A stretch of DNA of 56,254 bases from a virus. The stretch lies in the IMG/VR virus record IMGVR_UViG_3300037088_000364, positions 1 to 56,254 of that record, one strand, 5' to 3'. Position numbers and translations under genes: made by a program. Every line of letters begins with the position of its first letter. Position 1 is the first letter of the stretch. Under the pieces are notes generated by a model that was not told where the DNA came from, searched no databases, and worked only from the letters and a program-made list of their open reading frames with translations. This document shows positions 1,165 through 53,415 of this stretch, piece by piece.

Positions 1165-1402
1165 TAAGTTTTATCCGTTTTTTCTTTTCTACCACGAAAA
1201 ACGTAGTGTTGTAAAAGCTGCGTTTCTAAAATGCCGACGTGCCGCCCGCCGGATGGGATTTACGGATAAATTGATTGTAACACGTATTCCGGATATTGAC
1301 TTTGAACGGACAGAATTTCAGATTCTACAGAATACTAAGCGGGTAAAGACTCTTCGCCGCCTGAGTAGGCGCTTCTTGAAAATAATCAGTACCCCGGCTT
1401 GA
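1127..1402 (+). CDS. Hypothetical basic protein
   Basis: 91 residues, unrecognised. It starts inside the end of the Thg1-like gene, with GGGAG seven bases upstream of ATG 1127. The middle and C-terminal parts are rich in Arg and Lys (KCRRAARRMGF, RLSRRFLK), so nucleic-acid binding is possible. The frame continues upstream to 1055, but that start has no ribosome site. The next promoter overlaps its stop codon. Confidence 0.6.
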   Translation: MNYAILVKQPQVDKFYPFFLFYHEKRSVVKAAFLKCRRAARRMGFTDKLIVTRIPDIDFERTEFQILQNTKRVKTLRRLSRRFLKIISTPA

Positions 1403-1426
1403 CAATCTGAAAAATTGTGCTATGAT
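1399..1426 (+). promoter_or_regulatory. Promoter, leaderless type
   Basis: TTGACA at 1399-1404, 16-nt spacer, TATGAT at 1421-1426. ATG 1433 follows after six bases, so transcription should start at the start codon itself. Confidence 0.75.
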
Positions 1427-1432
1427 TGTAGT

Positions 1433-1654
1433 ATGACAACTTACTTTGACAAGTGGTGGCGGGCACTTGACATTTCTCACATGGAAAGTAATCGTCTTGA
1501 TACAATCAAGGAATTAGCACGCCTGGCGTGGCATAATGGCTATGAGACTTGTGCCAATGCTGCTATGCCTCTTGTGAGCGGTGTGTGGGATCGTGCGCAT
1601 GAGGCTGGTTGGGATGAAGCCCGCGATTATTATGCAATCCATGATTATGATTAA
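1433..1654 (+). CDS. Hypothetical protein, leaderless gene
   Basis: 73 residues, unrecognised; begins MTTYFDKWWRALD and is rich in Trp and acidic residues near the C terminus. The start is set by the promoter: ATG 1433 lies six bases after TATGAT and has no Shine-Dalgarno site. An in-frame ATG at 1415 lies upstream of the -10 box and cannot be in the transcript. It directly precedes the tRNA cluster, so its promoter may also drive the tRNAs. Confidence 0.65.
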   Translation: MTTYFDKWWRALDISHMESNRLDTIKELARLAWHNGYETCANAAMPLVSGVWDRAHEAGWDEARDYYAIHDYD

Positions 1655-1673: not shown

Positions 1674-1741
1674 CGGGCCTTAGCTTAATAGGAGCACCGG
1701 GAGGAACCGGGAGGTTGTGGGTTTGAGTCCCACAGGCCCGA
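1674..1741 (+). tRNA. Atypical tRNA, anticodon unclear
   Basis: Perfect 7-bp acceptor stem CGGGCCT/AGGCCCG, T arm GTGGG-TTTGAGT-CCCAC, 3-bp D stem GCT/AGC and discriminator A. The anticodon arm is irregular: CCGG-GAGGAA-CCGG gives a 4-bp stem and no clear U33. C1-G72 and A73 would fit tRNA-Pro, but the loop does not allow a firm call. It could be degenerate or edited. No CCA is encoded. Confidence 0.55.
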
Positions 1742-1752
1742 TTTATAAATAT

Positions 1753-1840
1753 GGGTGATGTTCCTTGCGTGCGGCTGTAAACCGCTTGGCGTAAAAGATG
1801 CAAGGTGGCTGCCGAAAGGGTTCGATTCCTTCATTACCCA
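1753..1840 (+). tRNA. tRNA-Tyr (GTA)
   Basis: Acceptor GGGTGAT/ATTACCC with one G-U pair, anticodon loop CTGTAAA on a GCGG/CCGC stem, a long variable arm as in class II tRNA-Tyr, and T loop TTCGATT. Discriminator A at 1840. CCA is not encoded. One pair in the T stem is mismatched. Confidence 0.85.
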
Positions 1841-1844
1841 CTTG

Positions 1845-1917
1845 GGGCTCGTAGCTCAATTGGTAGAGCAAGCGGCTTTTAACCGCTAGGTCGCAGGTTC
1901 GATCCCTGCCGGGCTCA
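1845..1917 (+). tRNA. tRNA-Lys (TTT)
   Basis: Complete cloverleaf: acceptor GGGCTCG/CGGGCTC with wobble pairs, D arm GCTC...GAGC, anticodon loop CTTTTAA on AGCGG/CCGCT, T arm GCAGG-TTCGATC-CCTGC, discriminator A1917. The HNH gene's ATG begins after only two more bases (CT). Confidence 0.95.
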
Positions 1918-1919
1918 CT

Positions 1920-2399
1920 ATGAATTTGACTGAAGAACAAATTAAACGCTTTTATGGTTGCTACAAGAAAGGTTCATCTGATTCTTGTTGGTTGTGGGGC
2001 GGCGGTATAGACAGCGAAGGTTACGGTTATTTTTGTATAAATAATAAGCATTATCGAGCCCATCGCATTGCAGCATTTTTGGAGGGACTTATACTAACAG
2101 AAGTAATTCGTCATACTTGTGATGTTCCTAATTGTGTTAATCCAAATCATTTAAAATCGGGAACTCATAGTGATAATGTTTATGATCGGGTTCAACGAAA
2201 ACGAAGTGCAAAAGATATTAACAATGGTCGGGCTAAATTAAATTGGAGTCAAGTATTAGCAATTAGACTATCAAATAATAGTGTTTCAAGTTTAGCTCGA
2301 CAGTTTGATGTTGATCGAAAATCAATTAGAAATATTAGACAAAATAAAACTTGGCAGGGTAGACCAATGGAAGAGTCACGACACTCAAAATGTCGGTAG
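1920..2399 (+). CDS. HNH homing endonuclease (HNH_3 type) with C-terminal helix-turn-helix
   Basis: 159 residues. The N-terminal half has the HNH_3 pattern: CWLWGGGIDSEGYG, then AHR, HTCDVPNCVNPNHL and GTHSDN. The C-terminal third (LARQFDVDRKSIRNI) is a DNA-binding helix-turn-helix. The gene fills the space between tRNA-Lys and the next tRNA. Its ATG lies three bases after the tRNA-Lys discriminator, with no Shine-Dalgarno site. Its last 47 bases are also the 5' half of the following tRNA, so the C-terminal residues after TWQGR are read through tRNA sequence. Probably a selfish mobile gene that entered the cluster. Confidence 0.9.
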   Translation: MNLTEEQIKRFYGCYKKGSSDSCWLWGGGIDSEGYGYFCINNKHYRAHRIAAFLEGLILTEVIRHTCDVPNCVNPNHLKSGTHSDNVYDRVQRKRSAKDINNGRAKLNWSQVLAIRLSNNSVSSLARQFDVDRKSIRNIRQNKTWQGRPMEESRHSKCR

Positions 2400-2425
2400 T
2401 ATCGGTTCGAGTCCGATCCCTGCTA
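2353..2425 (+). tRNA. tRNA with anticodon CAA (Leu-type), short variable arm
   Basis: Acceptor GGCAGGG/CCCTGCT ending in a G1-U72 wobble, D stem GAC/GTC, anticodon stem CGACA/TGTCG with loop CTCAAAA, 5-nt variable region, T arm ATCGG-TTCGAGT-CCGAT, discriminator A. CAA reads leucine UUG, but bacterial tRNA-Leu normally has a long variable arm and this one does not. The 5' 47 bases overlap the HNH reading frame. Confidence 0.85.
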
Positions 2426-2431
2426 CTTAAT

Positions 2432-2505
2432 GGTGGGCTAGCCCAATGGAAGGAGGCATCACGCTTAGAACGTGAACAGTGAAGGTTCGAGTCCTTCGCC
2501 CACTA
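2432..2505 (+). tRNA. tRNA with anticodon TAG (Leu-type), short variable arm
   Basis: Acceptor GGTGGGC/GCCCACT with a G1-U72 wobble, D stem GCC/GGC, anticodon stem TCACG/CGTGA with loop CTTAGAA, variable region ACAGT, T arm GAAGG-TTCGAGT-CCTTC, discriminator A. The anticodon reads CUA (leucine), again with a class I variable loop. It is six bases after the previous tRNA. Confidence 0.85.
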
Positions 2506-2508
2506 TTG

Positions 2509-2580
2509 CGGAATGTCGTTCAATGGTTAGGACCGGACTCTTATAAGGCCCAGATGGTGGTTCGATTCCACCCATTCCGA
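2509..2580 (+). tRNA. tRNA-Ile (TAT)
   Basis: Acceptor CGGAATG/CATTCCG, D stem GTTC/GGAC, anticodon loop CTTATAA, T arm GGTGG-TTCGATT-CCACC, discriminator A2580. The anticodon stem has one A-C mismatch. TAT reads AUA codons, which suits the AT-rich genes around it. The deaminase ATG follows after CT. Confidence 0.85.
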
Positions 2581-2582
2581 CT

Positions 2583-2942
2583 ATGGCTCAAATTGATAAG
2601 TATTTTCGTATAGCACGTCAAGTAGCCCTTAAAGGTGATTGCAAGGAGGCTAATCGTCATTATCGTGTGGGGGCGGTCGGTATCCGCACCGATGGGGCAG
2701 TTGTTACCGCAAGCAACATTGTTTCTAGGACGCCTAATCCTCTCGCCCATGCCGAAGCACGGGTCACTAAGAAGCTTGATTGGGGAAGCACGGTCTATGT
2801 TGTCAGAATACATTCGGATGGCACCTTGGCCCTCGCCCGGCCTTGCAGGCGGTGTCAAGGGGCGATGCGGCTCCGGGGTGTGAAACGCTGCTACTATTCA
2901 ATTTCCGACTCGGAATGGGGTATTTTTAACTTGACAACTTGA
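2583..2942 (+). CDS. Cytidine/deoxycytidylate deaminase family protein
   Basis: 119 residues. The zinc motif of the family is complete: HAE at residues 56-58 (His ligand, catalytic Glu) and PCRRC at 87-91 (two Cys ligands). These enzymes turn cytosine nucleotides into uracil nucleotides; in phages a dCMP deaminase usually feeds dTMP synthesis. Substrate choice is not visible. The start codon lies three bases after the discriminator of tRNA-Ile and has no Shine-Dalgarno site. The -35 box of the next promoter overlaps its 3' end. Confidence 0.8.
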   Translation: MAQIDKYFRIARQVALKGDCKEANRHYRVGAVGIRTDGAVVTASNIVSRTPNPLAHAEARVTKKLDWGSTVYVVRIHSDGTLALARPCRRCQGAMRLRGVKRCYYSISDSEWGIFNLTT

Positions 2943-2958
2943 AACTTGATGGTAGGAT
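2931..2958 (+). promoter_or_regulatory. Promoter, leaderless type
   Basis: TTGACA 2931-2936, 16-nt spacer, TAGGAT 2953-2958; ATG 2965 lies six bases downstream. Confidence 0.75.
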
Positions 2959-2964
2959 TATAGT

Positions 2965-3264
2965 ATGGACAACTGGCAAGAATTACTCAATAAGGCTCCT
3001 GATGATTACTCTCGATATTGTATTCTTCGGGATGCCTATGAGGCTAGAATTCCTGAAATGAAACAAATGCGGCTGGAAGCCACTGCTGCTTTGGAGCATG
3101 GGGAATTTCAATTAGAGCAGTGGAAGAAGCGCATGGATAAATTGCGTAGAGATTGTGTTACTCTCTCGCAGAGTATTCAAACTTCAATAACTAATTTGGC
3201 TGAATTAAAGCAACTAATTGCCGAACGCGAATTATACAGGAGTGCCGATGGTACTAATTCTTAA
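2965..3264 (+). CDS. Hypothetical coiled-coil protein, leaderless gene
   Basis: 99 residues, unrecognised. Residues 35-90 are rich in Glu, Lys, Leu and Gln in a heptad-like pattern, so a coiled coil is likely. Start fixed by the promoter six bases upstream. It overlaps the next gene by 17 nt and heads an eight-gene, tightly overlapping run reaching about 6.2 kb. Confidence 0.7.
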   Translation: MDNWQELLNKAPDDYSRYCILRDAYEARIPEMKQMRLEATAALEHGEFQLEQWKKRMDKLRRDCVTLSQSIQTSITNLAELKQLIAERELYRSADGTNS

Positions 3265-3517
3265 AGCAAAGCATGGGGATTACCCCGTTTATGCCCGTAA
3301 TGAAGCTGAGCGAGATAAGGCATATCTTCATTTGTTTCGTGTGATGGATGAGTGGGGCTATTATGGTAATCCTGACGATCTTGATAGCGACCAAGAAATG
3401 TTTTACTACAAGGCAAAGGGTGGAGACATAAGGGCGATTATTAATCTTCTAAATATACGTAGCGACCAAGGCTATGAATATGAAGAGATTGAGATTATCC
3501 ATCCGGTGACACCATGA
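3248..3517 (+). CDS. Hypothetical protein
   Basis: 89 residues, unrecognised, acidic C-terminal half. ATG 3248 is preceded by CAGGAG at good spacing; an upstream in-frame ATG at 3218 has none. Its stop overlaps the next ATG (ATGA). Confidence 0.65.
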   Translation: MVLILKAKHGDYPVYARNEAERDKAYLHLFRVMDEWGYYGNPDDLDSDQEMFYYKAKGGDIRAIINLLNIRSDQGYEYEEIEIIHPVTP

Positions 3518-3804
3518 AGATCCCAAAATTGGACCTTGGAAAAGGATTTCTAGGCCCGGAGTTTTTTGGTTGCCATAACACAGGGATGCGAACGGCCATT
3601 TTTCATGCAAAAAATAATAAGTGGGTTGTCGGCCCGGAAATGTATGCCCGTATAGTTCTTAGAGAAGCGGGGCATTATAGCAACAAGAGATTGCATAAAT
3701 TCAACACCAGAATTGTCTATGTTTTCAAGGGACGTGGATCCGCGATAAAGAAGTTTAATGAACTTTGTAGCGAAATTATGGCGTGGAATGAGCAACAAGT
3801 ATGA
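3514..3804 (+). CDS. Hypothetical basic protein
   Basis: 96 residues, unrecognised, rich in Lys and Arg. Start and stop overlap both neighbours by four bases, so it is probably translated by coupling within the same operon. Confidence 0.65.
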   Translation: MKIPKLDLGKGFLGPEFFGCHNTGMRTAIFHAKNNKWVVGPEMYARIVLREAGHYSNKRLHKFNTRIVYVFKGRGSAIKKFNELCSEIMAWNEQQV

Positions 3805-4109
3805 AATGTATCTATCATTTAATTGATGATGTTTTTGACGCCGAGATCCTTTATTTCTTTACACCCGGAGATCCAGGCGTGCCTTATTACCCTGATGGGA
3901 GCGGCTGCCCGCCAACCCCACCAGAAGTAAATGTTTACGATGTAAAAATTCATCAAATTATTACACAATCTGGCATAGTAATTGCAGCTAAATGGTTAGC
4001 GGATAATGGTTGGATGAAATCTGCGAAAAATATTTTACTAAAAAAACTAGAAAATCTTGATCCAGATACAAAATTATGGTATAATTTAGTGGCTAATGCA
4101 AATGGATAA
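3801..4109 (+). CDS. Hypothetical protein
   Basis: 102 residues, unrecognised, with a Pro/Gly-rich patch (residues 24-43) and a Lys-rich tail. ATGA overlap with the upstream gene; the next gene starts 14 bases before its end. Confidence 0.6.
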   Translation: MKCIYHLIDDVFDAEILYFFTPGDPGVPYYPDGSGCPPTPPEVNVYDVKIHQIITQSGIVIAAKWLADNGWMKSAKNILLKKLENLDPDTKLWYNLVANANG

Positions 4110-4278
4110 GTGGTGGTTATCAAGTCCTCGAATGACGGTCGGAGTTAAAGTATCAAATGGTCTAATAGTCGAGGCAGCACCTATAGTACGAGTATTCATT
4201 GGTCAGTCATTTACTAATCTTCTTCGATGGATGAAACCCGACCAGAAAGTATTGTTAAATGATGCACCAAGAGATTGA
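4096..4278 (+). CDS. Hypothetical small protein
   Basis: 60 residues, unrecognised. Two starts are possible, ATG 4096 and ATG 4102; neither has a strong ribosome site and coupling to the upstream stop is likely. Overlaps the next gene by 20 nt. Confidence 0.5.
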   Translation: MQMDKWWLSSPRMTVGVKVSNGLIVEAAPIVRVFIGQSFTNLLRWMKPDQKVLLNDAPRD

Positions 4279-4696
4279 AACCGAGAATAAGCGACGATCA
4301 CTAATTACTGCAATTATGGCCCTTGTTAATACATTCGATACTGTTCAGGCGTGTATTCTCCTTAAAAATCTAGGTGGATACGAGCAGGATTTTTTTACAT
4401 TAAGAGGCACTGCCTTTCAGACTTCGGTTAGTAGTATGTTGAAGAGCGCAGATTGTTTTCGCCCGTTGACTGAAATTAATATAATCTTTGATGGGGGTCC
4501 AACGGAAATTGCGCGATATAAAGGAACTGTAGCAACTTTTATAGTAGACCGGGTACTCCGAGAAGTTTCTAAACACGGACTTAAATTTGTTAAAACTAAA
4601 TTAAATGATATTGTCGATTGGAAGAATAAAAGTTACGAAGAAGAGAAATCTGACGAATGGAACGATCTTGCTGCTGCTGAAAGGTATGCAGGATGA
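4259..4696 (+). CDS. Hypothetical protein
   Basis: 145 residues, unrecognised; mixed helical composition, Lys/Glu-rich C terminus (KNKSYEEEKSDEW). Start could be 4259 or 4262. Its stop overlaps the start of the AP2-HNH gene. Confidence 0.6.
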   Translation: MMHQEIETENKRRSLITAIMALVNTFDTVQACILLKNLGGYEQDFFTLRGTAFQTSVSSMLKSADCFRPLTEINIIFDGGPTEIARYKGTVATFIVDRVLREVSKHGLKFVKTKLNDIVDWKNKSYEEEKSDEWNDLAAAERYAG

Positions 4697-5184
4697 AACA
4701 GATACTACTCTCACAAGACAAGTTTGCTCTATTAGATGACCAAGATTATGATATCTTGATGAAATGGAAGTGGTATGCTGCTAAAATAGGATTTACATTC
4801 TACGCAAGACGAAAAACAAGCAGAAAAAATCCCCCACGAAAAACTATTTGTATGCATCAAACTATTGCTGAAAGAATGGGAATTCTAGGGGAGGTAGATC
4901 ATATAGATAGAAATGGACTAAATAATCAAAGAGATAATTTACGGTTAGCAACAGATTCTCAAAATTCTGCTCATCGAAGAAAATATAAAAATAATACATC
5001 TGGCTATAAAGGTGTTTCCCAATTTAAACATGGATCTAAATGGCGGGCTCAAATTCAAGTTGATAATAAATTTATTTCTTTAGGATTCTTTGATACTAAA
5101 ATAGATGCAGCAAAAGCATATAATGAAGCGGCTTTAAAATATTTTGGCGAGTTTGCCACTTTAAATGAGATTAAAGATGAATGA
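4693..5184 (+). CDS. AP2-domain HNH homing endonuclease
   Basis: 163 residues. A central HNH core (VDHIDRNGLNNQRDNLR) is followed by an AP2/ERF-type DNA-binding domain (NTSGYKGV, KWRAQI, AAKAYNEAALKYFGEFA). The N-terminal block (LLSQDKFALLDDQDYDIL) is shared with the copies at 6,867, 8,214 and 53,412, which form one paralogous family. It starts on an ATGA overlap and is inserted in a run of small genes without breaking them, as free-standing homing endonucleases often are. Confidence 0.9.
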   Translation: MKQILLSQDKFALLDDQDYDILMKWKWYAAKIGFTFYARRKTSRKNPPRKTICMHQTIAERMGILGEVDHIDRNGLNNQRDNLRLATDSQNSAHRRKYKNNTSGYKGVSQFKHGSKWRAQIQVDNKFISLGFFDTKIDAAKAYNEAALKYFGEFATLNEIKDE

Positions 5185-5470
5185 ACCAATTGTATACATG
5201 GCAACGAAATATGGGCTTGAAAAACTTCGAGTAATTAAACGCATTGATAACCAAAGTCTATGGGTTAAAGATAAGTTTCAAATTGAATTTAAGGTTTATG
5301 AAGAAAATATCTTTACAGATTTGAAAGAAGCTTATACCTGGATGAGAAAGTATCTTCGACGAAAACTTCATGATGCCAAACTTCAAGTTTCGACTGCTAA
5401 ACAAGATTTACATAATCTATACGCCAAATACAAGGAGCGAATACGTGAATTGGATAAAAGCAATCGGTAA
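5177..5470 (+). CDS. Hypothetical coiled-coil-like protein
   Basis: 97 residues, unrecognised; C-terminal half (YLRRKLHDAKLQVSTAKQDL) looks helical and coiled-coil-like. ATG 5177 overlaps the nuclease stop by eight bases; ATG 5165 is an alternative. Confidence 0.6.
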   Translation: MNEPIVYMATKYGLEKLRVIKRIDNQSLWVKDKFQIEFKVYEENIFTDLKEAYTWMRKYLRRKLHDAKLQVSTAKQDLHNLYAKYKERIRELDKSNR

Positions 5471-5807
5471 GATGAGTTGGGATGAGGTTACAGCTTTACA
5501 GCAAGCCCTTATCTTACGTAAACAACAACTTCGCGTCTTAGAGCCCAATGTCTATGCGGTTCGTCGGAAGGTTGATGGACAGTTTGAGTATCTTGGTTAT
5601 GATGACGGGGAATCCGAAGGTTGGGTGTCGTTGTCACATCCCACTGTAGCGATATATCCTTCTCACGGGGTCGCCGATTATGTACGGGGCCATCATGAGG
5701 GGTCTACAGTTATCACTATTCCAAAAGAAGAGTTTCGGACACTTCCCGCATTTGGACGACATCTAAAAATGGGAGTAGTTGACGAACGCGGTAATTATAA
5801 TGGCTAA
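5445..5807 (+). CDS. Hypothetical protein
   Basis: 120 residues from GTG 5445, chosen because AAGGAG lies just upstream at about eight bases; the frame is open further upstream but without a ribosome site. No recognised domain; contains a Tyr/Gly-rich central part. Confidence 0.6.
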   Translation: MNWIKAIGKMSWDEVTALQQALILRKQQLRVLEPNVYAVRRKVDGQFEYLGYDDGESEGWVSLSHPTVAIYPSHGVADYVRGHHEGSTVITIPKEEFRTLPAFGRHLKMGVVDERGNYNG

Positions 5808-6183
5808 CTATTACAAGTCTGGCAATGATTATATTGCTGTAGATTTTTCTCAAAAAGATCAAACTAAATGTTTCGTTTTTGGTCGGGGTCCAAAGATTCC
5901 CGGCGATATTGCTTCAATTGGAGAAACTTTATTTGAAATAAGACGGTTATCGGGCGCGATTAGACCTGAACTAGTCCCGATAGAATGGCAGGAGGCACTG
6001 GGTTTAGCGCCAGTCGTGATGCCTCCAGCGCTCCCACCACCCGCTTCGTCGGTGCCAGTGCCTCCTGTGGCGTGGGAACCGATAATAGTACAACCCGAAG
6101 AACCGAATTATTTTTGGTTTAATGCTGCCTGTCTGACAATAGTTTTAATTGTTGCCTTGACAAAGGCTTTTTTCATGGTATAG
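5800..6183 (+). CDS. Hypothetical membrane-anchored protein
   Basis: 127 residues. A soluble N-terminal part, a Pro-rich linker around residues 68-95, and a C-terminal hydrophobic segment (ACLTIVLIVALTKAFFMV) that looks like a tail anchor. ATG 5800 overlaps the previous gene's end; 5779 is an alternative. The promoter of the TatA gene lies inside its 3' end. Confidence 0.65.
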   Translation: MANYYKSGNDYIAVDFSQKDQTKCFVFGRGPKIPGDIASIGETLFEIRRLSGAIRPELVPIEWQEALGLAPVVMPPALPPPASSVPVPPVAWEPIIVQPEEPNYFWFNAACLTIVLIVALTKAFFMV

Positions 6184-6184
6184 T
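6157..6184 (+). promoter_or_regulatory. Promoter of the tatA-like gene, leaderless type
   Basis: TTGACA 6157-6162, 16-nt spacer, TATAGT 6179-6184; ATG 6191 six bases downstream. It sits inside the coding end of the preceding gene. Confidence 0.75.
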
Positions 6185-6190
6185 TATAAT

Positions 6191-6334
6191 ATGAAGCTTG
6201 CGGAAATTCTTATCCTGGCCTTCGTCGCTTTGCTCCTATTCGGTAATAGACTGCCAAATATGATGCGAAGTCTAGGGCAAGGAATCCGTGAATTCAAGAA
6301 GGGAATTGATGATGACCCAAGTAGTCGCGTATAA
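6191..6334 (+). CDS. tatA: TatA/TatE-like twin-arginine translocase subunit (47 aa)
   Basis: The product has the compact TatA layout: a short N terminus, one membrane helix (EILILAFVALLLF), the FGN-R-LP hinge (FGNRLPNMMRSLG), an amphipathic helix (GIREFKKG) and an acidic tail (DDDP). TatA forms the pore-like assembly of the Tat system, which exports folded proteins with twin-arginine signals. At 47 residues it is shorter than most cellular TatA but retains all core elements. It has its own leaderless promoter. A candidate substrate is encoded at 46,006. TatB or TatC is not seen in this window, so it would act with host TatC. Confidence 0.85.
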   Translation: MKLAEILILAFVALLLFGNRLPNMMRSLGQGIREFKKGIDDDPSSRV

Positions 6335-6668
6335 CGTATGTATTCACGGCCGCAATGGTGAAGAGTATATTTGTACTGTAGTCGAATGTCCACCGGCCTT
6401 TTCTGATATTAAGCATATTCTCGAATATGAAGTTGATGGCCTAAAGAAGGACGCTCATATTCTAATGAACCAAGAGAGCAATCCGGATACGAATTATCGG
6501 ATTGGTCGAACTTGGAATCGAGTGGAAGAGTTGACACGACTGATTAGCTTTTTCAATCTCTCTACTCTCGAAGAGCCCAAGTCTCTTCCTTACAATGTCA
6601 CCGTGATGCTGGGTGGTCAGCCGGTTGGTACAATCGCTGCTATCCCAGTGCCCGTTTATAGGATTTGA
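6309..6668 (+). CDS. Hypothetical protein
   Basis: 119 residues, unrecognised. Starts inside the tatA-like gene (ATG 6309 or 6312, after GAAGGGA), so translation is probably coupled. Mixed alpha/beta composition, C terminus Pro/Val-rich. Confidence 0.6.
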   Translation: MMTQVVAYNVCIHGRNGEEYICTVVECPPAFSDIKHILEYEVDGLKKDAHILMNQESNPDTNYRIGRTWNRVEELTRLISFFNLSTLEEPKSLPYNVTVMLGGQPVGTIAAIPVPVYRI

Positions 6669-6853
6669 AATACCTTGGTCGGATGTTTGAAGTTGGCATT
6701 TACGACGACAGGCAAGTAGACTTCCGTGGTGCAATTGATGACTATCTTTTAGTAACGCCTCTTGTGATCCACACTATCTCGGTACAAGCTCTCCAGCGAA
6801 GGCTCTGCAATCCGCGCCCCGTTGCCAGCATTGTAATTACGTCCGAATCGTAA
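6665..6853 (+). CDS. Hypothetical small protein
   Basis: 62 residues if started at TTG 6665, which overlaps the previous stop and follows AGGA; ATG 6683 is an alternative. Unrecognised. Confidence 0.5.
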   Translation: MKYLGRMFEVGIYDDRQVDFRGAIDDYLLVTPLVIHTISVQALQRRLCNPRPVASIVITSES

Positions 6854-6866
6854 TGGAGCTTCTTTT

Positions 6867-7352
6867 ATGAAAAAGATAAAACTTACGCAAGATAAGTTTG
6901 CTTTGGTTGATGATCAAGATTATGAATTCTTAATACAGTGGAAATGGTGTGCCTCTAAACATCGTGGTATGTTTTATGCTGTTCGATGTGTTCAGAGCAA
7001 GTTAAAACAAACTGCAATAAAAATGCATCAAATCATTGCTATAAGAATGGGTCTTTTAGCGAGTGACACATTAGATCATATTGATCAGAATGGATTAAAT
7101 AATCAACGCTTAAATTTAAGACTCGCAACAGTATCTCAGAATGGAATAAATCGACCTAAACAACGGAATAATACATCTGGTTATAAAGGTGTACATTGGC
7201 GAAAAGATAGCCATAAATGGCAAGCTAAGATTCAAATAAATGGAAAAGATATTCATTTAGGTTATTTTACCAGTAAAAAAGAAGCTGCTAAAGCCTATAA
7301 TAAAGCAGCATTAAAATATTTTGGCAAATTTGCAGTATTAAATAAGGTCTAA
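6867..7352 (+). CDS. AP2-domain HNH homing endonuclease
   Basis: 161 residues. HNH core LDHIDQNGLNNQRLNLRLA and AP2 domain (NTSGYKGVHWRK, KWQAKI, AAKAYNKAALKYFGKFA). Same family as 4,693 and 8,214. Its leader TGGAGCTTCTTTT resembles that of the HNH gene at 10,668 (TGGAGGTTCTTTT). It lies directly upstream of a tRNA-Asp-like gene and the tmRNA region. Confidence 0.9.
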   Translation: MKKIKLTQDKFALVDDQDYEFLIQWKWCASKHRGMFYAVRCVQSKLKQTAIKMHQIIAIRMGLLASDTLDHIDQNGLNNQRLNLRLATVSQNGINRPKQRNNTSGYKGVHWRKDSHKWQAKIQINGKDIHLGYFTSKKEAAKAYNKAALKYFGKFAVLNKV

Positions 7353-7394
7353 TGCTCGGCATGGTTGTATTCGGGTGTTGAATTCGGGACAACC

Positions 7395-7421
7395 TTGGAT
7401 CGGGGTCATAGTCCGATCCAA
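7395..7421 (+). other. Strong hairpin of unknown role
   Basis: TTGGATCGG (7395-7403) pairs perfectly with CCGATCCAA (7413-7421). The loop contains part of the GGGGTC motif seen elsewhere. No T-run follows, so it is not an obvious terminator. The 7,353-7,423 gap also holds a GGTTGT/ACAACC stem and a repeated ATTCGGG; it may be a decayed structured RNA. Confidence 0.45.
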
Positions 7422-7423
7422 CA

Positions 7424-7490
7424 GAGTTTGCCAGGTTGGGGTTTACATTAAGTCGAAGTGTGAATGTTGGTTCGAGTCCAACCAAAATCG
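7424..7490 (+). tRNA. Probable tRNA-Asp (GTC), reduced D arm
   Basis: A 67-nt cloverleaf can be drawn: acceptor GAGTTTG/CAAAATC with one G-A mismatch, a weak 3-bp D stem, anticodon stem ACATT/AGTGT with loop AAGTCGA, T arm GTTGG-TTCGAGT-CCAAC and discriminator G. Anticodon GTC together with G73 fits tRNA-Asp. U33 is missing and the D arm is weak, so it may be decayed or atypical. Confidence 0.5.
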
Positions 7491-7505
7491 CTGGAGGTAT
7501 TAAAT

Positions 7506-7733
7506 ATGATCATTGGAACTTGTTCAATTTGTGGCGGGCCGGTTGAAACAGATATGGAAGGTGTTGGGCGATGTAAGCGTTGTCATGCCAAGGCAACTCG
7601 TCCGTGGGGACCAGTTATTCCAATGGATCCACCCATGCCTCCGTATCCGGTTTATCCGTGTATACCGCAGTCGCCGCCTGATTGGCGCAATGGATCATTT
7701 ATTGTTTCTTGTTCCTCTTTTTTGAAAGGTTAG
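7506..7733 (+). CDS. Small zinc-ribbon, Pro-rich protein
   Basis: 75 residues. Two CxxC pairs (CSICGG and CKRC) form a zinc ribbon in the first 30 residues, followed by a Pro-rich segment (MDPPMPPYPVYP). ATG 7506 is chosen for the GGAGG eight bases upstream. It is followed closely by the Flp pilin gene. Function unknown. Confidence 0.7.
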   Translation: MIIGTCSICGGPVETDMEGVGRCKRCHAKATRPWGPVIPMDPPMPPYPVYPCIPQSPPDWRNGSFIVSCSSFLKG

Positions 7734-7736
7734 TCA

Positions 7737-7904
7737 ATGATTCGTAAGTTTCTTGTTTCTGAGGATGGGCCGGCAGCCGTCGAGTATGCAGTGCTATTGG
7801 CACTAATTACGATTGTAGCGATACCTGCGGTAACGCTACTTGGTACAGAAGTCCGGCGTGTTTATGAGTATGTGGCTCGTGAATTGAGGCGAGTTGTACC
7901 GTAA
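7737..7904 (+). CDS. Flp/Fap-type (type IVb) pilin-like protein
   Basis: 55 residues. The start MIRKFLVSEDGPAAVEYAVL followed by LALITIVAI matches Flp pilins: a short basic leader, the G-P/T-A-A-V-E-Y motif with the conserved Glu-Tyr, and one hydrophobic helix. Flp pilins are cleaved by a prepilin peptidase and assembled by the Tad machinery; neither is encoded here. The EDGPAAVEYAVLLALI form recalls planctomycete Flp pilins. It lies ten bases upstream of the tmRNA. It may be a recent host acquisition or a surface decoy. Confidence 0.8.
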   Translation: MIRKFLVSEDGPAAVEYAVLLALITIVAIPAVTLLGTEVRRVYEYVARELRRVVP

Positions 7905-7914
7905 AAGGTACGAT

Positions 7915-8211
7915 GGGGATGAAGTAGGTTTCGATTAATTGTGAACAGGAAGTGTTGCATACCGTGGTTAGTCAGTTGGCCACGTTAAAAGCTGACTAAA
8001 TTATTTAATTGCCAAACCGCAATTAGCACTGGCTGCGTAAAGCTGCCAAGACAACTGTAAGTGTCAATGTAGCAGAAGTCGTTAGTAATTGACAGTTGAT
8101 GTACATTTATAGATCAGCCGAGTTATTTGGGCTGTTGAATAACGAATAACTATGTATGTAGATATACCACTAGAAGCAATTAAGACCCGAGTGCGACTCT
8201 CGGCATCTCCA
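7915..8211 (+). ncRNA. ssrA: tmRNA (transfer-messenger RNA)
   Basis: The 5' end GGGGATG pairs with the 3' end CATCTCC to form the acceptor stem, with the G3-U70 wobble that marks alanine acceptors, and discriminator A. Near the 5' end is the conserved GGTTTCGA, and near the 3' end a T arm CCGAG-TGCGACT-CTCGG. The tag frame at 8,011-8,040 reads AKPQLALAA then TAA, a typical degradation tag ending in ALAA. tmRNA rescues stalled ribosomes and tags their products for proteolysis. Length 297 nt, CCA not encoded. An AP2-HNH gene starts three bases after the discriminator. Confidence 0.93.
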
Positions 8212-8213
8212 CT

Positions 8214-8726
8214 ATGAAACGAATTCCGCTCACACAAGGCAAGTTTGTATTAGTCTCTAATAAAGATTATACTTACTTAATGCAATGGAAGTGGTTCGCG
8301 CATAAAAATAGAATAACTTTTTATGCCGAAAGAAATCTTTCAAAAACAAAGCCCTGTAGACTGTGTGGTTGTCGAAAATTTGTAACATTACGAATGCATC
8401 AAGCTATTGCTGAAAGAATGCATCTTAATATTAAAGATAAAAAAGTAGATCATAAAGATCGAAATGGATTAAATAATCAACGAAGTAATTTGCGAATTGC
8501 AACAGATTCACAAAGTAACTCGAATCAAGGTAAGCGTAAAAATAATACATCGGGATACACGGGTGTTACTGAGGATAAACGAAGAAATAAATGGGTAGCT
8601 AATATTCGAGTTAAAGGTAAACAAAGTTTTTTGGGGATTTTTACTAATAAGAAAGATGCCGCAAGAGCCTATAATGAAGCCGCAATAAAATGTCGTGGTC
8701 CCTTTGCCGTATTGAATAAAATTTGA
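8214..8726 (+). CDS. AP2-domain HNH homing endonuclease
   Basis: 170 residues. HNH core VDHKDRNGLNNQRSNLRIA with an extra CRLCGCRK zinc motif before it, then an AP2 domain (NTSGYTGV, KWVANI, AARAYNEAAIK). ATG 8214 is separated from the tmRNA discriminator by only CT; there is no Shine-Dalgarno site. The next promoter's -35 box overlaps its stop codon. Confidence 0.9.
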   Translation: MKRIPLTQGKFVLVSNKDYTYLMQWKWFAHKNRITFYAERNLSKTKPCRLCGCRKFVTLRMHQAIAERMHLNIKDKKVDHKDRNGLNNQRSNLRIATDSQSNSNQGKRKNNTSGYTGVTEDKRRNKWVANIRVKGKQSFLGIFTNKKDAARAYNEAAIKCRGPFAVLNKI

Positions 8727-8750
8727 CATTTACTCGAAATAAGGTATAAT
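8723..8750 (+). promoter_or_regulatory. Promoter, leaderless type
   Basis: TTGACA 8723-8728 overlapping the HNH stop, 16-nt spacer, TATAAT 8745-8750; ATG 8757 six bases downstream. Confidence 0.8.
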
Positions 8751-8756
8751 TGTAAT

Positions 8757-9023
8757 ATGAAATTTGATGCTTTGAATTATTGGGATAAGTGGGCTTATTT
8801 GCCATTGATGGATCGTTTGATGATTTTTGAGCTGCTAGGTGGCCGGGTCGCCGAGTGGTTTGTTACTGTACATGAACCCAGCTATTACCCTGAATCTTGG
8901 GAATTTCATTGTCTTGTAAACACATTGCCAAAGGAGAAGAAGCCACTATTTGAGCGTGTTGTTGAAGAGTGGAAACAGTATGTTGATAAACGACTACAGG
9001 AAGTTAAAACTTATGGACGTTAA
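8757..9023 (+). CDS. Hypothetical protein, leaderless gene
   Basis: 88 residues, unrecognised; Trp/Tyr-rich N-terminal half and a charged helical C terminus. Start fixed by the consensus promoter. First gene of an operon running to about 10.6 kb. Confidence 0.7.
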   Translation: MKFDALNYWDKWAYLPLMDRLMIFELLGGRVAEWFVTVHEPSYYPESWEFHCLVNTLPKEKKPLFERVVEEWKQYVDKRLQEVKTYGR

Positions 9024-13944: not shown

Positions 13945-15339
13945 ATGCCAACCCAGCGCCCATTTCCCGGTACGCGTATTGAGTCTACGCCCCCGGTGCG
14001 CCAAGTGGCAGAGTTTTGTAGCCATTGCAATAAGCCATTAACAGAAGCCCACGAAGGGCCGGATGGATTTTCCTACTGCCCGGCTTGCTTTGAGATGCTT
14101 TTTCGACAATGTTGTCATTGTCAAGAGTATATTGTCCGCGAAGATGGGCGAATCTCTAGTAACGGAACTTTCTATTGTGACTACTGTTATGATAGTATGT
14201 TTACGCAATGCTACGGTTGCGGTCGGGAAGTAAATCGGGGGCGGGCGACTGTCGGGCCAGATAATGAACACTATTGCGCCCGATGCTTTGATCGTCGATT
14301 TTTCGTTTGTGACAATTGCGAGGAAACATTCCATCAACGGGAACGTTTTCGCACCCCTGGCGATAGCTATTACTGTGATGAATGTTTCCATGATTTGTGC
14401 GTAAATTGCAGCGGTTGTGGAAACCCGTTATGGAACGATTCGGCCCAATGGTCGGATGATCGCCCTTATTGCCGTGATTGTTACCGCCCGTCGAGTGAGT
14501 GGGAAATGGGCAGTTTTACCGTTTCCGATTCTCATTATGATCGTATCGGTTCAAGGCGGCGGTTTGGGGTAGAATTGGAAACTTACCGATGCCCTGATCA
14601 TAATGTTCTTAATGGTCACACCATTTGGGAGTGTAAGCATGATTGTTCTATTGAGGGTATGGAGTTCGTTTCGCCCATTTTGTATGGAGATGAAGGATTA
14701 GAAGAAATTGAACGATTCTGCCAGCGGGCCGAAGAGTTGCATTTTGAGGTAAGTAGGCAATGTGGCTATCATGCTCACTTTGATGTAAGCACTGAGTCTA
14801 CCGATTCGCTGAAAGCAATAGCTTATGCGTATCGTAGGACTTATGAGGTCTGGTGTTCCTTAGTGCCTAATTCTCGCAGTGATAACCGTTATTGCGGTTC
14901 TCCTGATTATGAGAGTAGCGACATTACCCATGAGGATTTTGACTACTTTGTCGGAAAGCGTGACCGATTCGAGTTTGTCAACTGGCGGGCTTATTTGGTT
15001 CATGGCAGTGTTGAGGTTAGATTGTATCAAGGCAGTCTTGACGCTGAGGAGATTTGTAACTGGCTTATCCTTCACGCCCGATTTATTGATTTTGTCAAGG
15101 ATAAGAGTTTTTCGGAACTTGACAGTCTTTTCCATAACACTCCCCGCGAGGATTTTGTCGCTATTGCGGAGATTATTGGTCCTGAGTTAGCGGAGTATTG
15201 GATCAGAAAATCCGAAGAATGGCATAAATCGCTTAGGCCCCAACCAGCGCGGCGGGCTCCGCAACGTCCATTTGCGTGGGTGGTCGATGCGCCTAGACGA
15301 GAAGCGTTTTATTACGATTTGGATGAAGCTCCCCATTAA
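13945..15339 (+). CDS. LIM-like zinc-ribbon amidoligase A (Amidoligase_2 type)
   Basis: 464 residues. Residues 25-185 carry ten CxxC pairs (FCSHC, YCPAC, QCCHC, YCDYC and so on) in LIM-like double-zinc units. The rest is the amidoligase domain: RFGVELET (acidic metal site), HDCSIEGMEFVSPIL, CGYHAHFD, NWRAYLVHGSVEVRLYQGSL and NWLILHARFIDFVKDK. Amidoligases of this superfamily resemble glutamine synthetase and form amide bonds between carboxylates and amines using ATP. Zinc modules probably bind the target. Leaderless start at the consensus promoter. Three paralogues occur at 16,340, 19,473 and 28,429. Confidence 0.85.
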   Translation: MPTQRPFPGTRIESTPPVRQVAEFCSHCNKPLTEAHEGPDGFSYCPACFEMLFRQCCHCQEYIVREDGRISSNGTFYCDYCYDSMFTQCYGCGREVNRGRATVGPDNEHYCARCFDRRFFVCDNCEETFHQRERFRTPGDSYYCDECFHDLCVNCSGCGNPLWNDSAQWSDDRPYCRDCYRPSSEWEMGSFTVSDSHYDRIGSRRRFGVELETYRCPDHNVLNGHTIWECKHDCSIEGMEFVSPILYGDEGLEEIERFCQRAEELHFEVSRQCGYHAHFDVSTESTDSLKAIAYAYRRTYEVWCSLVPNSRSDNRYCGSPDYESSDITHEDFDYFVGKRDRFEFVNWRAYLVHGSVEVRLYQGSLDAEEICNWLILHARFIDFVKDKSFSELDSLFHNTPREDFVAIAEIIGPELAEYWIRKSEEWHKSLRPQPARRAPQRPFAWVVDAPRREAFYYDLDEAPH

Positions 15340-22570: not shown

Positions 22571-22747
22571 TTGAGTGCAACGAACGCAACATCGGCACCT
22601 TTGTGTTTCCAAAAGTGAACGCCACGTAATTCGAGACTTTGGCAAAGTCAAGGACAATCTCTTCGTAAGTCGTTTCGCGCTTTCTTGTTGTGACAATCCG
22701 GCGGATAGAAGCCGTTATGTGGCACACAACATGCTTCACTAACCAAC

Positions 22748-23332
22748 ATGCTTTGGAAAACGACCGGGCAAATCGCCAACGATTACGGCGTGACGCCCCA
22801 AACGATTCGTAGGTGGATTGCAAGTGGTGAATTCGAGCACGTCAAGCGAACCGAGGGTGGGCACTACCGAATTGGTATTGTCCCCGCCACCGAACAGCGC
22901 GTCGGATACGCCCGGGTCTCGTCTCGCAAGCAGAAATCGTCGCTTGAAGAGCAAAAGCGGCAACTCAAAAAAGCCTACCCGAAAATCGAAATCCTTGCCG
23001 ACATCGGCTCTGGTTTCAATTTCAAGCGAAAAGGATTTGTTGCCCTATTGGAACGAGCGATGTCCGGCGTTGCAGTCCATGTTGTGGTGTCCAACAACGA
23101 TAGATTGTCACGAGTTGGACTTGAATTCGTCCGAGCCATCCTTGAGCGAGCGGGTGGATCGGTCACAGCACTTAATAAGTCGTGTGAAAGCCCCGACCAA
23201 TTCAGTACAGAAGTGCTCGTTGGATTTATCACCAGCTTTTGTAACGCCTACTATGGACGGCGTTCGGCGAAAGTCAAAAGAAGTAAGTCGGAAGATAAGG
23301 CTCTATCCCACGGCCCAGCGCAAGTGGTTTGA
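22748..23332 (+). CDS. tnpA: IS607-family serine recombinase TnpA
   Basis: 194 residues. N-terminal MerR-like helix-turn-helix (GQIANDYGVTPQTIRRWIASG), then the serine-resolvase catalytic domain (VGYARVSSRKQKSSLEEQ, catalytic Ser near residue 58; NNDRLSRVG; FITSFCNAYYGRRS). This small DNA-binding-first order is typical of IS607 transposases. It ends inside tnpB (80-nt overlap). Confidence 0.92.
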   Translation: MLWKTTGQIANDYGVTPQTIRRWIASGEFEHVKRTEGGHYRIGIVPATEQRVGYARVSSRKQKSSLEEQKRQLKKAYPKIEILADIGSGFNFKRKGFVALLERAMSGVAVHVVVSNNDRLSRVGLEFVRAILERAGGSVTALNKSCESPDQFSTEVLVGFITSFCNAYYGRRSAKVKRSKSEDKALSHGPAQVV

Positions 23333-24374
23333 GTTGTTGCACGCGAGCCGTCGTGCCTACAACATTTGCATCGCCGCCTTCAAGACTTGGATCAAAGGCG
23401 AGGCGCACGAAACCGACAATCAGGTTGCTTTCCGGGTCACAGTGCGGGAGTTAGTCCGGGCTGAATTCCCGGAGGTTCCCTCGGTTTTGCTTGATGAGGC
23501 GGTCAATAGTGCCTACCTCACCCGGCAGGCCATCATCAAGCGGCGGAGCCAGGGTGAGGAATGCGATTACTCTTTCCGTTGCCGGAAAGACAACAAACAA
23601 TCATTCGTGGTCCAGCGGCTTGCAAGCAGCGGGCCGTTTCCCACGATATTGAAGGAACATCTTACCGAAGCCATCCCAAGTGAGGCCGTCGGTAAAATGG
23701 CAAGTGTAGTTTGGGAGTGTGGTCGGTGGTTCTTGATTTGCAAGGTCACGGTGGAGGTTAGTGCCGAAAGCCAAGGCAAGTTGACCGTCGCTTGCGACCC
23801 CGGAGTCAGAACCTTCCTCACGACTTTCTCTCCCCTGGATTGTGCGAAGATCGGCAAAGGATTTGCGGTGAAGATTCGTCCGATGCTCTTGCGACTCGAC
23901 AAGTTGTTTGGGCAGCGAGCAAGGTTCTTCAAGGCAGCGCCCAAGGAATGGAAGCAATGTCACCGTGATAGGTTTCGGTATTTCCAGAAGCGAATTCATT
24001 CAATTCGGAACAAACTCCAAGACCTAACACTTGACTTGCACAGACGCGCGGCCGACTTTCTCACAAAGAACTACGACGTGATTTTGTTGCCAACCTTTGA
24101 GACATCAGAAATGACGGCAAGGGAAAAACGCAAGATCACGTCACGCACCGTTCGAGGGATGCTTTCTCTTGGTCACTACCAATTCAAGCAATACTTGGGT
24201 TGGATAGCGTACAAGCGAGGGAAAGTTGTGTTAGTCGGGAGCGAGGCGTATACCTCCAAGACCGACTCGCGGAGCGGTGAGATCAAGGAACTTGGTCCGG
24301 CGAAAACGATCAACGGACTTTGCAGGGATGTGAACGGTGCTCGTGGGCAATTCCTACGGGCGTTGGCAACTTGA
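23253..24374 (+). CDS. tnpB: TnpB RNA-guided nuclease, zinc-finger cysteines missing
   Basis: 373 residues from ATG 23253; the frame is open to 22,818 but there it is only antiphase to tnpA. RuvC residues are all present: D182 (TVACDPGVRTF), E283 (LLPTFETSEM) and D359 (CRDVNGARG). The usual four-Cys zinc finger between E and the last D is gone: the TSKTCxxC site reads TSKTDSRSGE. Some TnpB/Fanzor relatives also lack these Cys, so activity is still plausible. The guide RNA is expected to overlap the 3' end. Confidence 0.9.
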   Translation: MDGVRRKSKEVSRKIRLYPTAQRKWFELLHASRRAYNICIAAFKTWIKGEAHETDNQVAFRVTVRELVRAEFPEVPSVLLDEAVNSAYLTRQAIIKRRSQGEECDYSFRCRKDNKQSFVVQRLASSGPFPTILKEHLTEAIPSEAVGKMASVVWECGRWFLICKVTVEVSAESQGKLTVACDPGVRTFLTTFSPLDCAKIGKGFAVKIRPMLLRLDKLFGQRARFFKAAPKEWKQCHRDRFRYFQKRIHSIRNKLQDLTLDLHRRAADFLTKNYDVILLPTFETSEMTAREKRKITSRTVRGMLSLGHYQFKQYLGWIAYKRGKVVLVGSEAYTSKTDSRSGEIKELGPAKTINGLCRDVNGARGQFLRALAT

Positions 24375-42940: not shown

Positions 42941-43228
42941 TTACACTAATAGAGCAATTCCTATACCAACAAGAAACAAAATACCTAACCTTATAGTATG
43001 ACGAGTGTTAACACGTTTTCTGACTTCTGTATACCGTTGTCGATAGTCAACCCACGAAATAAATGTGCCATCTTTTCGCATCATCCCTTTAGAGGGGTGA
43101 GAATAAGGAATTCGAGGTAGCCCCATTTCATCTAAAGTCAAGAAATGAAAGGTGTTATCTTTAACAGATACCCTTTGACTAGGGTATGCAGCCGCCGCCC
43201 ATGAAATCCAAAACGATGAAGCATTCAT
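42941..43228 (-). CDS. Hypothetical membrane-anchored protein, leaderless
   Basis: 95 residues with a C-terminal membrane helix (LGILFLVGIGIALLV). First gene of the leftward operon; ATG lies exactly six bases after the -10 box. Confidence 0.65.
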   Translation of the reverse strand: MNASSFWISWAAAAYPSQRVSVKDNTFHFLTLDEMGLPRIPYSHPSKGMMRKDGTFISWVDYRQRYTEVRKRVNTRHTIRLGILFLVGIGIALLV

Positions 43229-51160: not shown

Positions 51161-53415
51161 GTGCCTAATGTTCCGAGGATAATTGATGCAAGACATTATA
51201 CTAGTGGTGTCCGTGTAAGGTAACTTACAATGAAACAACAAGGCTATATGCTGGAAACCCCGAGTATGCAACAGTACGCTTCGCGTAACAATCTGCTTGC
51301 TGCGGACAATCAGCAGGGAAGGCTCGAAAGAGAACCCTCAACGACTACACGCCTTGCTCCCTTTAAGGGATGAAGATATAGTCTGGACTGCATGGCGACA
51401 TGCAGAGGTTGGCAGAAATGACCAACCCGACTCTTATGAGTTGGTAACAGATTGGGTGGATGCTTTGGAGAGATTGCTATTATGGGGGCGTTGATTTTGT
51501 TTTTAGACATCTCCATAAGTTCAGTAACAGAGAGTCAGACTTAGATTTTACAAACCGGCGTCAAATAACCCCAGTTCCATCATTTGCTAAAACAGCAATC
51601 AATGAAATTCGGAATGCTATTTTTCAACGGATGAGTGATTGTATTCGTCGAGGTGGCACAGATGCTTATACTCAAACAATAGCCGGACTTAATGGCGGCG
51701 TGGATCTTCGTGGCTCTAATATGAACTTTTTCATGGGCCATAAAGTTCTTACCGACCTATTAGTAATGGGTCAGATCGGGGTATATGTAGACATGCCTCC
51801 TGTCAATGGCCCAACTTTAGCAGATACATTAGGTATGCGGCCTTACTTATACGTTTATCAGGTTGAAGATATCCTATCTTGGTCAGTATCTTCTCCGAGT
51901 AATCCATCAGAGTTTAAAGCATTATTATTACGTGACAGGGGCGTAGATTATCATATTGATAATTTACTCGGTGTGACTTTGCCAATAGGAAGTTATGAAC
52001 GTTTTCGTTTAGTATGGATTGACCCTGGTACAAGTCATGTTATGGTTCGCTTCCTTAATACAGCGGCCGAACCAATTGATCCTATGTCGGGCCTTCCAAC
52101 ATTAGACCCACCAATTGAACTGCAACTCACTCGTATCCCATTTGTATTACTTGATATTGGTGAAAGCTTAATGAAAGATGTGGCAAACCATCAAATTGCC
52201 CTCTTAAACCTCGGATCTAGTGATGTTTCGTATGCTTTAAAGGCAAATTTTCCCTTTTACACTGAACAACAAGACCTAAGATCCATCGGAGATCACTTAA
52301 AGCATAATGTAAATCCTGATGGGTCCGCAATGACTGGTGGACAGCCAGCATCAGATAAAGACAAGCTAATTGGTCCAACACAAGGGATCGCATATGACTT
52401 GAAGGCTGAACGACCGGGTTACATTCATCCCTCAGCAGAGCCTTTAAACGCCTCAATGGCACTTCAAGACAGGCTAGAAGATCAAATTCGTAAATTAGTA
52501 CATTTAAGCGTACTCAATAAATCTGGTCAGCCATTCTCGGCTGAAGTAAAAGAAATGGTTGGACAAGGGTTAGAGGCCGGATTGGCTCATATTGGCTTTG
52601 TTTTGGAGATTGCGGAACGAAGAATTGCTGATTATTGGGCTTGTTATGAAGAAAAAAACATAAAAAAGCGAAGAATTGCTCATGTTAAATACCCAGATCG
52701 CTATAATTTAACTAAAAATCTTGATAGAATTGCTGAAGCCAAGGATTTATCAGCACTTTTAGCTACCGTTCCGGGTCGCCAGGCTAAAAAAGAATTAGCA
52801 AAAGACTTGGTATTGACTCTTCTTGGATCACGAGTTCCAACAGACAAACTTCAAGAAGTTTTTAAAGAAATTGACTCTGCTAGTTATACAACCAGTGATC
52901 CCAATGTCATTATTCAAGCTTCAATCAACGGACTAGTCGGTGAGCAACAAGCATCAATTGCACTAGGATTTGATGACGATGAATATCTAAAAGCTAGAGA
53001 TGACCATCAACAACGAATTCAACGTATTGCACAGGCTCAAACACAGGGATTTGGAGGGGCTGCACAAGGACAAAATGGACAAACTTCACCAGAAAACCCC
53101 CCAGAGTCTTTAAAAGAGCCTGAGAAACTTCCAAAAGAACCTGAAAAGACTCCAAAAGAACCCGATAAACCCACCCCCCCTGCCCAAGATCCTGCTAATA
53201 AAGCAGTTGTCAACAAAGGGGAGTTGAATCATAAAACTCAAGTTGCAAGTCCCATAGATCCCAATACTCCCAATCCACAGTGGGCGGCAGCGCGAGGACT
53301 GAAGGATCTTGCTATTAATCGACAAGCAGCAAGCGAAGAGAAAATAGCAGCGCAAGATACTACTTTGTCAGAAGATAAGAAAAAACCTATAAGGGGCAAG
53401 GGAAAAAAGATTTAA
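51161..53415 (+). CDS. Portal protein, split by a group I intron (exons about 51,161-51,214 and 51,451-53,415)
   Basis: Exon 1 starts at GTG 51161 (AAAGGAG upstream) and reads MPNVPRIIDARHYTSGVR. Exon 2 reads WMLWRDCYYGGVDFVFRHL, then VPSFAKTAINEIRNAIFQRM and LTDLLVMGQIGVYVDMPP, patterns of tailed-phage portal proteins. The spliced product would be about 673 residues. The C terminus from about residue 560 is disordered (PKEPEK repeats, Lys-rich end). Portal rings form the DNA gate next to terminase. Exact splice sites are not proven; phase is kept with 51,214/51,451. Confidence 0.75.
51215..51450 (+). other. Group I intron (self-splicing), about 236 nt
   Basis: The conserved core is present in order: CTGCT (P) and GACAATCAGCAGG at about 51,305-51,317 (Q, P4 pairing CTGCT/AGCAG), CAACGACTACACG at about 51,340 (R) and GAAGATATAGTCT at 51,372-51,384 (S, P7). 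Stops interrupt every frame through it, while portal-like sequence lies on both sides. Boundaries are approximate: exon 1 ends in U and the intron ends in G, as required. No endonuclease is inside it. Confidence 0.8.

Follow-up and report, generated by a model that had tools for sequence, protein, structure and literature searches.

Genes starting flush behind tRNA and tmRNA genes in an uncultivated phage: possible tRNA punctuation with leaderless initiation

Introduction

How can a protein gene be translated when its start codon lies only two bases behind an RNA gene? The question is raised by a locus in the IMG/VR virus record IMGVR_UViG_3300037088_000364, of which positions 1 to 56,254 were analysed as one stretch of 56,254 nucleotides (the window). 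Three non-homologous genes, coding for an HNH-type homing endonuclease-like protein, a deaminase and an AP2-HNH homing endonuclease-like protein, begin there immediately behind the genes for tRNA-Lys, tRNA-Ile and the transfer-messenger RNA (tmRNA), respectively (Table 1). Expression of all three by tRNA/tmRNA punctuation, with excision of the RNA releasing the downstream message, is considered probable, if by a narrow measure. The idea was put forward in a first-pass annotation of the same DNA. The anatomy, the leaderless start code of the virus and the spacing of genes behind viral tRNAs fit it; the CT dinucleotide shared by the junctions proved trivial, the layout is not unusual, and the likeness to mitochondria is one of function only.

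Geometry of the three junctions

At each junction the discriminator base A is followed by CT and then directly by the start codon (...GGGCTC-A-CT-ATG behind tRNA-Lys, ...CATTCCG-A-CT-ATG behind tRNA-Ile, ...CATCTCC-A-CT-ATG behind the tmRNA), the whole gap between RNA and gene amounting to two bases. This arrangement had been described in the first-pass annotation and is borne out by ARAGORN, Rfam and the sequence itself at 1920, 2583 and 8214. Among the recognised RNA genes these are all of the RNA-to-protein-gene junctions, each remaining RNA preceding another RNA. The start codons are not misplaced, since homologues and paralogues agree on them: the PF00383 match of the deaminase opens at residue 3, and the paralogue alignments of the AP2-HNH and HNH proteins open at residues 1-3.

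A Shine-Dalgarno (SD) site is absent from all three genes, as annotated earlier; the pairing energies are -2.5 (1920), +0.3 (2583) and -1.7 kcal/mol (8214), compared with -5.6 to -10.6 kcal/mol at the SD-led neighbours (starts at 6867, 7506, 9731 and 10668). The RNA touches the start region and leaves no space for a ribosome-binding site, which is the abutment characteristic of tRNA punctuation. Neither a TTGACA/TATAAT-type promoter ending at the junction nor a terminator between the RNA and the downstream gene is found at any of the three junctions. Leaderless promoters inside the tRNAs were considered and rejected, none being found, and a TANNNT motif whose first T would lie some 12 bp ahead of the start is missing from all three junction genes, where acceptor-stem sequence occupies that place.

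Translational coupling would provide another route to the start codon, by which a short open reading frame (ORF) that spans the RNA terminates at the start codon and passes its ribosomes on. ATGA overlaps at 1920 and 8214 and a 21-codon ATG frame from 8152 that ends at 8215 are in keeping with it. The overlapping frame at 1920, however, has no start codon, and the start at 2583 has no overlapping stop, so that coupling is ruled out for both; ribosomes would moreover have to unfold the tRNA. As a general account of the locus, coupling deserves hardly any credence.

Spacing of genes behind viral RNA genes

The identical CT had been pointed out in the first-pass annotation, yet it carries no information: of 1917 viral tRNAs, 601 have ACT behind them, CT being the commonest viral tRNA trailer, and in the phage itself CT also trails tRNA-Leu(CAA) and a Tyr-like element that no program calls. 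The shared CT was therefore rejected as a signal. It is the spacing, with zero slack, that is the informative feature. A start at spacing 2 is estimated to account for 5-10% of first ORF starts within 60 nt behind a tRNA, a value adjusted by us for the pattern-selected matches left out, and three of three at this spacing would be expected by chance with a probability of the order of 1e-3. Coincidence, i.e., three independent random placements, could appeal to there being only three cases with a common trailer; given the low chance per junction and the enrichment of this spacing across viruses, it is very improbable.

The layout is not restricted to this phage. A search of IMG/VR viral contigs for the pattern GGTTCGANTCC-N10-ACTATG gave at least 120 matches; among the matches listed, about 40% head an ORF of at least 50 aa, and of the 78 tRNA-confirmed ones 25 head an ORF of at least 60 aa. 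Uniqueness to a single phage is thus rejected, and with it the earlier view that the layout is unusual in a phage. Several flush junctions occur per contig in L019, L107 and L364. The flush genes include those for terminase (L310), GDP-mannose dehydratase (L054), PTH2 (L061), amidase (L041), GDSL lipase (L016) and a PD-(D/E)XK nuclease (L107). The order tmRNA-CT(T)-ATG recurs in the viral loci L025, L033 and L239 and in the cellular contigs L476 (386-aa gene) and L489 (331 aa, gyrase-B-like by eye), with the start of the cellular genes two bases behind the tmRNA.

Selection bias was countered by variable-gap scans, matches selected for spacing 2 being dropped. The survey comprised 3040 viral RNAs; behind those with a CT trailer, ORFs of at least 60 aa start 19 times at spacing 2, 15 times at spacing 3 and 37 times in total at spacings 4-12. 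The excess at spacing 2 has a binomial p of 1.3e-5, and calculated per ATG the values are 24% versus 11% (Fisher p 0.003). Behind pattern-independent viral tRNAs, 3.6 starts per position are counted at 4-12 and 9.3 at 13-24. Start counts are highest at 2-3, low at 4-10 and climb again from about 11, where an SD site fits. From the sparse spacings 4-12 and the frequent spacings 13-24 it follows that genes behind viral tRNAs are either flush or SD-distant; flush spacing across viral contigs is clearly non-random. This two-humped distribution may be a more valuable result than the single case.

Leaderless promoters and the proposed route of expression

The pattern TTGAC[A/T]-N16/17-TANNNT-N6-ATG occurs at 15 sites in 143 kb, with 0.13 expected from first-order simulated sequence. 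These 143 kb comprise the window and contig G001 (109.8 kb), which derives from the same virus (100% match over the 20 kb compared, overlap to about window position 22,687) and adds 87 kb upstream of the window with no further tRNAs. The sites lie at 1399-21828 on the plus strand and at 43228 on the minus strand of the window, as well as in G001, and GG often stands directly before the -10 box. As the -10 box is six bases from the ATG, transcription should begin on or beside the A of the start codon. Operon-internal genes of the virus are often SD-led instead.

Viral contigs in general also show a peak at a promoter-to-ATG gap of 6 (62, versus about 14 at other gaps), and some IMG/VR loci are rich in such promoters, e.g., L238, with 13 sites in 12 kb, L512 and L331. 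Leaderless starts seem to be in use among many uncultivated phages.

The tRNA cluster sits behind the leaderless promoter at 1399-1426, the deaminase gene being the final one ahead of the promoter at 2931. The tmRNA falls in the stretch opened by the leaderless promoter at 6157; this stretch closes with the AP2-HNH gene, ahead of the promoter at 8723. Each RNA lies on the same strand as its downstream gene, with neither terminator nor promoter between them. We infer co-transcription of RNA and gene, cutting of the RNA and translation from the cut product. An operon transcript started at 1399 or 6157 would read through the tRNA cluster or the tmRNA into the next gene. RNase Z is an enzyme that cuts CCA-less precursors behind the discriminator; a host 3'-tRNA endonuclease, RNase Z or an equivalent, would cut behind the discriminator A or one base further. 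The freed message would carry a leader of 0-2 nt (CU-AUG), being leaderless in effect, and ribosomes would start on it in the leaderless mode, as at the many leaderless promoters of the virus. As long as the RNA is uncut, its fold would keep ribosomes off the start codon, which is only two bases away, and translation would await RNA maturation. Because the virus starts many other genes without a leader, tRNA excision probably doubles as message making. Leaders shorter than 10 nt are counted as leaderless in Streptomyces (PMC4681348). Mapping in P. acnes has placed endonucleolytic ends at the 3' termini of tRNAs, even within the CCA, and such cuts leave defined downstream 5' ends in actinobacteria (PMC3848588).

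Weighing of the alternatives

Several observations weigh against punctuation. In the comparison of viral contigs, those with flush junctions show no enrichment of leaderless promoters and no shortage of SD genes (p 0.33). Such independence would suit genome compaction alone, by which genes are packed tight against the RNA and translated poorly, or independently of SD, from uncut read-through transcripts, processing playing no part. Phages are compact, and with CT as the default trailer ACT-ATG is the tightest packing. Compaction predicts, however, a smooth fall-off of start counts with distance, not the dip and renewed climb described above, and genes needing steady expression, such as that for terminase, use the flush layout. 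The size of the ribosome footprint is established, and on this basis an acceptor stem that is stable and only two bases away should bar ribosomes from the start codon as long as the RNA is uncut. Compaction as the only cause is thus rated as rather unlikely, albeit the most serious of the rivals.

A further adverse point comes from relatives. G001, being the same virus, gives no independent test of conservation. In G005 (terminase 66% identical), the sole relative that carries tRNAs, a distance of about 25-50 nt separates the tRNAs from the genes that follow, and wherever an SD site can be recognised the gene is led by it. Whether spacing in related phages would be random, the check proposed in the first-pass annotation, has consequently a divided answer: the flush layout is not found in G005, while the spacing across viral contigs is far from random. 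In the two cultivated phages examined, Acibel004 and CcrColossus, tRNA and gene are at least 12-13 nt apart. A search of annotated phages for the junctions of L054, L310, L107 and L061 yielded, among the matches listed, pieces of the tRNA or of the gene but in no case the junction; in a comparison aimed at the host, the terminase matches listed all fall below 30% identity.

The nature of the downstream genes also has to be considered. While the deaminase is a Zn-dependent cytidine/dCMP deaminase (PF00383), the two other junction genes are mobile endonuclease genes, other copies of which start in quite different contexts. The HNH protein has no Pfam match and four paralogues in the virus (31-37% identical); the AP2-HNH protein matches HNH_3 above cut-off and AP2 with 29 bits (cut-off 33.3), and its family has at least nine copies in the virus. 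Mobile DNA commonly lands at the 3' end of a tRNA or tmRNA gene. The HNH and AP2-HNH genes might therefore have landed there, the flush junction being an insertion scar. Relatives with an empty target site were not found. The HNH gene exactly fills the space from tRNA-Lys to tRNA-Leu, the homology to its paralogues stopping at residue 145-146, precisely at the 5' end of tRNA-Leu, and HNH-like genes are seen by eye behind tRNAs also in L069 and L114. Yet the third junction gene codes for a deaminase, flush genes in other contigs are mostly not endonucleases, and none of the other AP2-HNH copies of the virus is located behind an RNA gene. As insertion would, in addition, leave the translation of the junction genes unexplained, it is regarded as improbable.

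A last difficulty lies in the HNH stop codon, TAG at 2397-2399, which falls inside tRNA-Leu(CAA) and was missed in the first-pass annotation. A cut by RNase P between 2352 and 2353 would strip it from the HNH message, which would then be cut at both ends; one transcript would therefore yield either an intact HNH message or tRNA-Leu, not both. Cleavage at this tRNA would create a non-stop HNH message, in a virus that encodes its own tmRNA.

Punctuation at the three junctions may extend further. It is conceivable, though short of probable, that genes widespread among phages, together with some in bacteria, form a class that has neither promoter nor ribosome-binding site of its own, receives a leaderless message via 3' maturation of the tRNA or tmRNA immediately ahead, and has its expression gated by tRNA processing. 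No description of such punctuation for phages was found in the open-access literature searched. If excision of a tRNA or tmRNA does create the next message, phage tRNA clusters would be expression devices besides suppliers of tRNA, the translation of SD-less genes behind tRNAs, including that of terminase, would be accounted for, and a mitochondrial expression strategy would have a free-living counterpart.

Further features of the locus and the window

The features of the locus are compiled in Table 1. Bacterial tRNA-Leu usually carries a long variable arm; tRNA-Leu(CAA) and tRNA-Leu(UAG) have leucine anticodons at a length of only 73-74 nt and lack that arm. The Tyr-like element (1751-1841) has the anticodon loop CUGUAAA and an intact T arm and acceptor, while its predicted fold is not a cloverleaf. 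A gene for a Thg1-like tRNA-His guanylyltransferase (409-1164; PF04446, E 3e-25) adjoins the tRNA cluster, and a degenerate tRNA-like stretch (7375-7490; T-arm GTTGGTTCGAGTCCAAC) lies between an AP2-HNH gene (6867-7352) and the ORF at 7506.

Two small genes are noted here in a phage, one TatA-like (6191-6334; PF02416) and one Flp/Fap pilin-like (7737-7904; PF04964, below cut-off). Elsewhere in the window, an IS607-like pair was recognised by eye at 22748-24374, with a MerR/serine-recombinase tnpA overlapping a TnpB-like gene. A group I intron (51188-51405; Rfam 72.5 bits) directly precedes a long ORF (51460-53415), possibly for the portal protein. Four zinc-finger plus amidoligase-like paralogues (by eye) are located at 13945, 16340, 19473 and 28390, two of them behind leaderless promoters.

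Table 1. Coordinates of RNA genes, junctions, protein genes and promoters around the three flush starts
Feature	Position	Strand	Basis or remark
Leaderless-type promoter TTGACA-N16-TATGAT-N6 (1399-1426) and ORF (ATG 1433, 73 aa)	1399-1654	+	Presumed operon head for tRNA cluster, HNH and deaminase genes
tRNA-like gene	1674-1741	+	Rfam tRNA, 41 bits
tRNA-Tyr-like element	about 1751-1841	+	Uncalled by ARAGORN or Rfam
tRNA-Lys(UUU), discriminator A1917, no encoded CCA	1845-1917	+	ARAGORN; Rfam (1845-1917, 71 bits)
Junction CT, tRNA-Lys to HNH start codon	1918-1919	+	Sequence
HNH-type homing endonuclease-like gene, 159 aa	1920-2399	+	Paralogue similarity; no Pfam match
tRNA-Leu(CAA), overlapping HNH 3' end; followed by A-CT-TA	2353-2425	+	ARAGORN; Rfam
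tRNA-Leu(UAG)	2432-2505	+	ARAGORN; Rfam
tRNA-Ile(UAU), discriminator A2580, no encoded CCA	2509-2580	+	ARAGORN; Rfam (2509-2580, 54.9 bits)
Junction CT ahead of deaminase start codon	2581-2582	+	Sequence
Cytidine/deoxycytidylate deaminase gene, 119 aa	2583-2942	+	PF00383
Leaderless promoter TTGACA-N16-TAGGAT-N6-ATG (2965) and its ORF	2931-3264	+	Promoter pattern
Leaderless promoter and TatA-like gene (ATG 6191)	6157-6334	+	Presumed head of tmRNA operon
tmRNA, tag AKPQLALAA, discriminator A8211, no encoded CCA	7915-8211	+	ARAGORN; Rfam (start 7915, 107 bits, E 5e-41)
Junction CT ahead of AP2-HNH start codon	8212-8213	+	Sequence
AP2-HNH homing endonuclease-like gene, 170 aa	8214-8726	+	HNH_3; paralogues
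Leaderless promoter TTGACA-N16-TATAAT-N6-ATG (8757) and its ORF	8723-9023	+	Promoter pattern

Comparison with known systems

In its gene content the locus resembles phage tRNA clusters with free-standing HNH and AP2-HNH homing endonuclease genes, from which it differs by the flush, SD-less starts and the tmRNA. Dicistronic precursors cut by RNase Z are known from plants, where a tRNA is joined to a small nucleolar RNA (snoRNA). In Nanoarchaeum, the dicistronic precursor of tRNA-Val and the small RNA (sRNA) sRNA8 is likewise cut by RNase Z (PMC3491384). As would apply in the virus, the 3' maturation of the tRNA creates the 5' end of the adjoining RNA; the difference is that the downstream RNA would here be a messenger RNA and the genome that of a phage.

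The signature published for leaderless genes (Zheng et al. 2011, PMC3160421) is a TANNNT motif some 12 bp ahead of the start, a promoter-start geometry identical to that of the 15 sites of the virus. In those genes the 5' end comes from the promoter, whereas at the three junctions it would come from RNA processing.

The mitochondrial resemblance claimed in the first-pass annotation holds as a parallel in function, with cleavage and leaderless translation in the phage being presumed. In animal mitochondrial DNA, too, tRNAs abut coding genes, and excision would give leaders of 0-2 nt. Excision can there remove a stop codon, as it would at the HNH/tRNA-Leu overlap, and some mitochondrial junctions share the choice between intact message and tRNA. 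Unlike mitochondria, the phage has three such junctions in a large DNA genome with its own promoters, one of the RNAs is a tmRNA, and stop codons are not known to be completed by poly(A). Summarizing, the layout is a recurrent one that, assuming the cut, would unite the working principle of mitochondrial tRNA punctuation with the leaderless initiation of bacteria.

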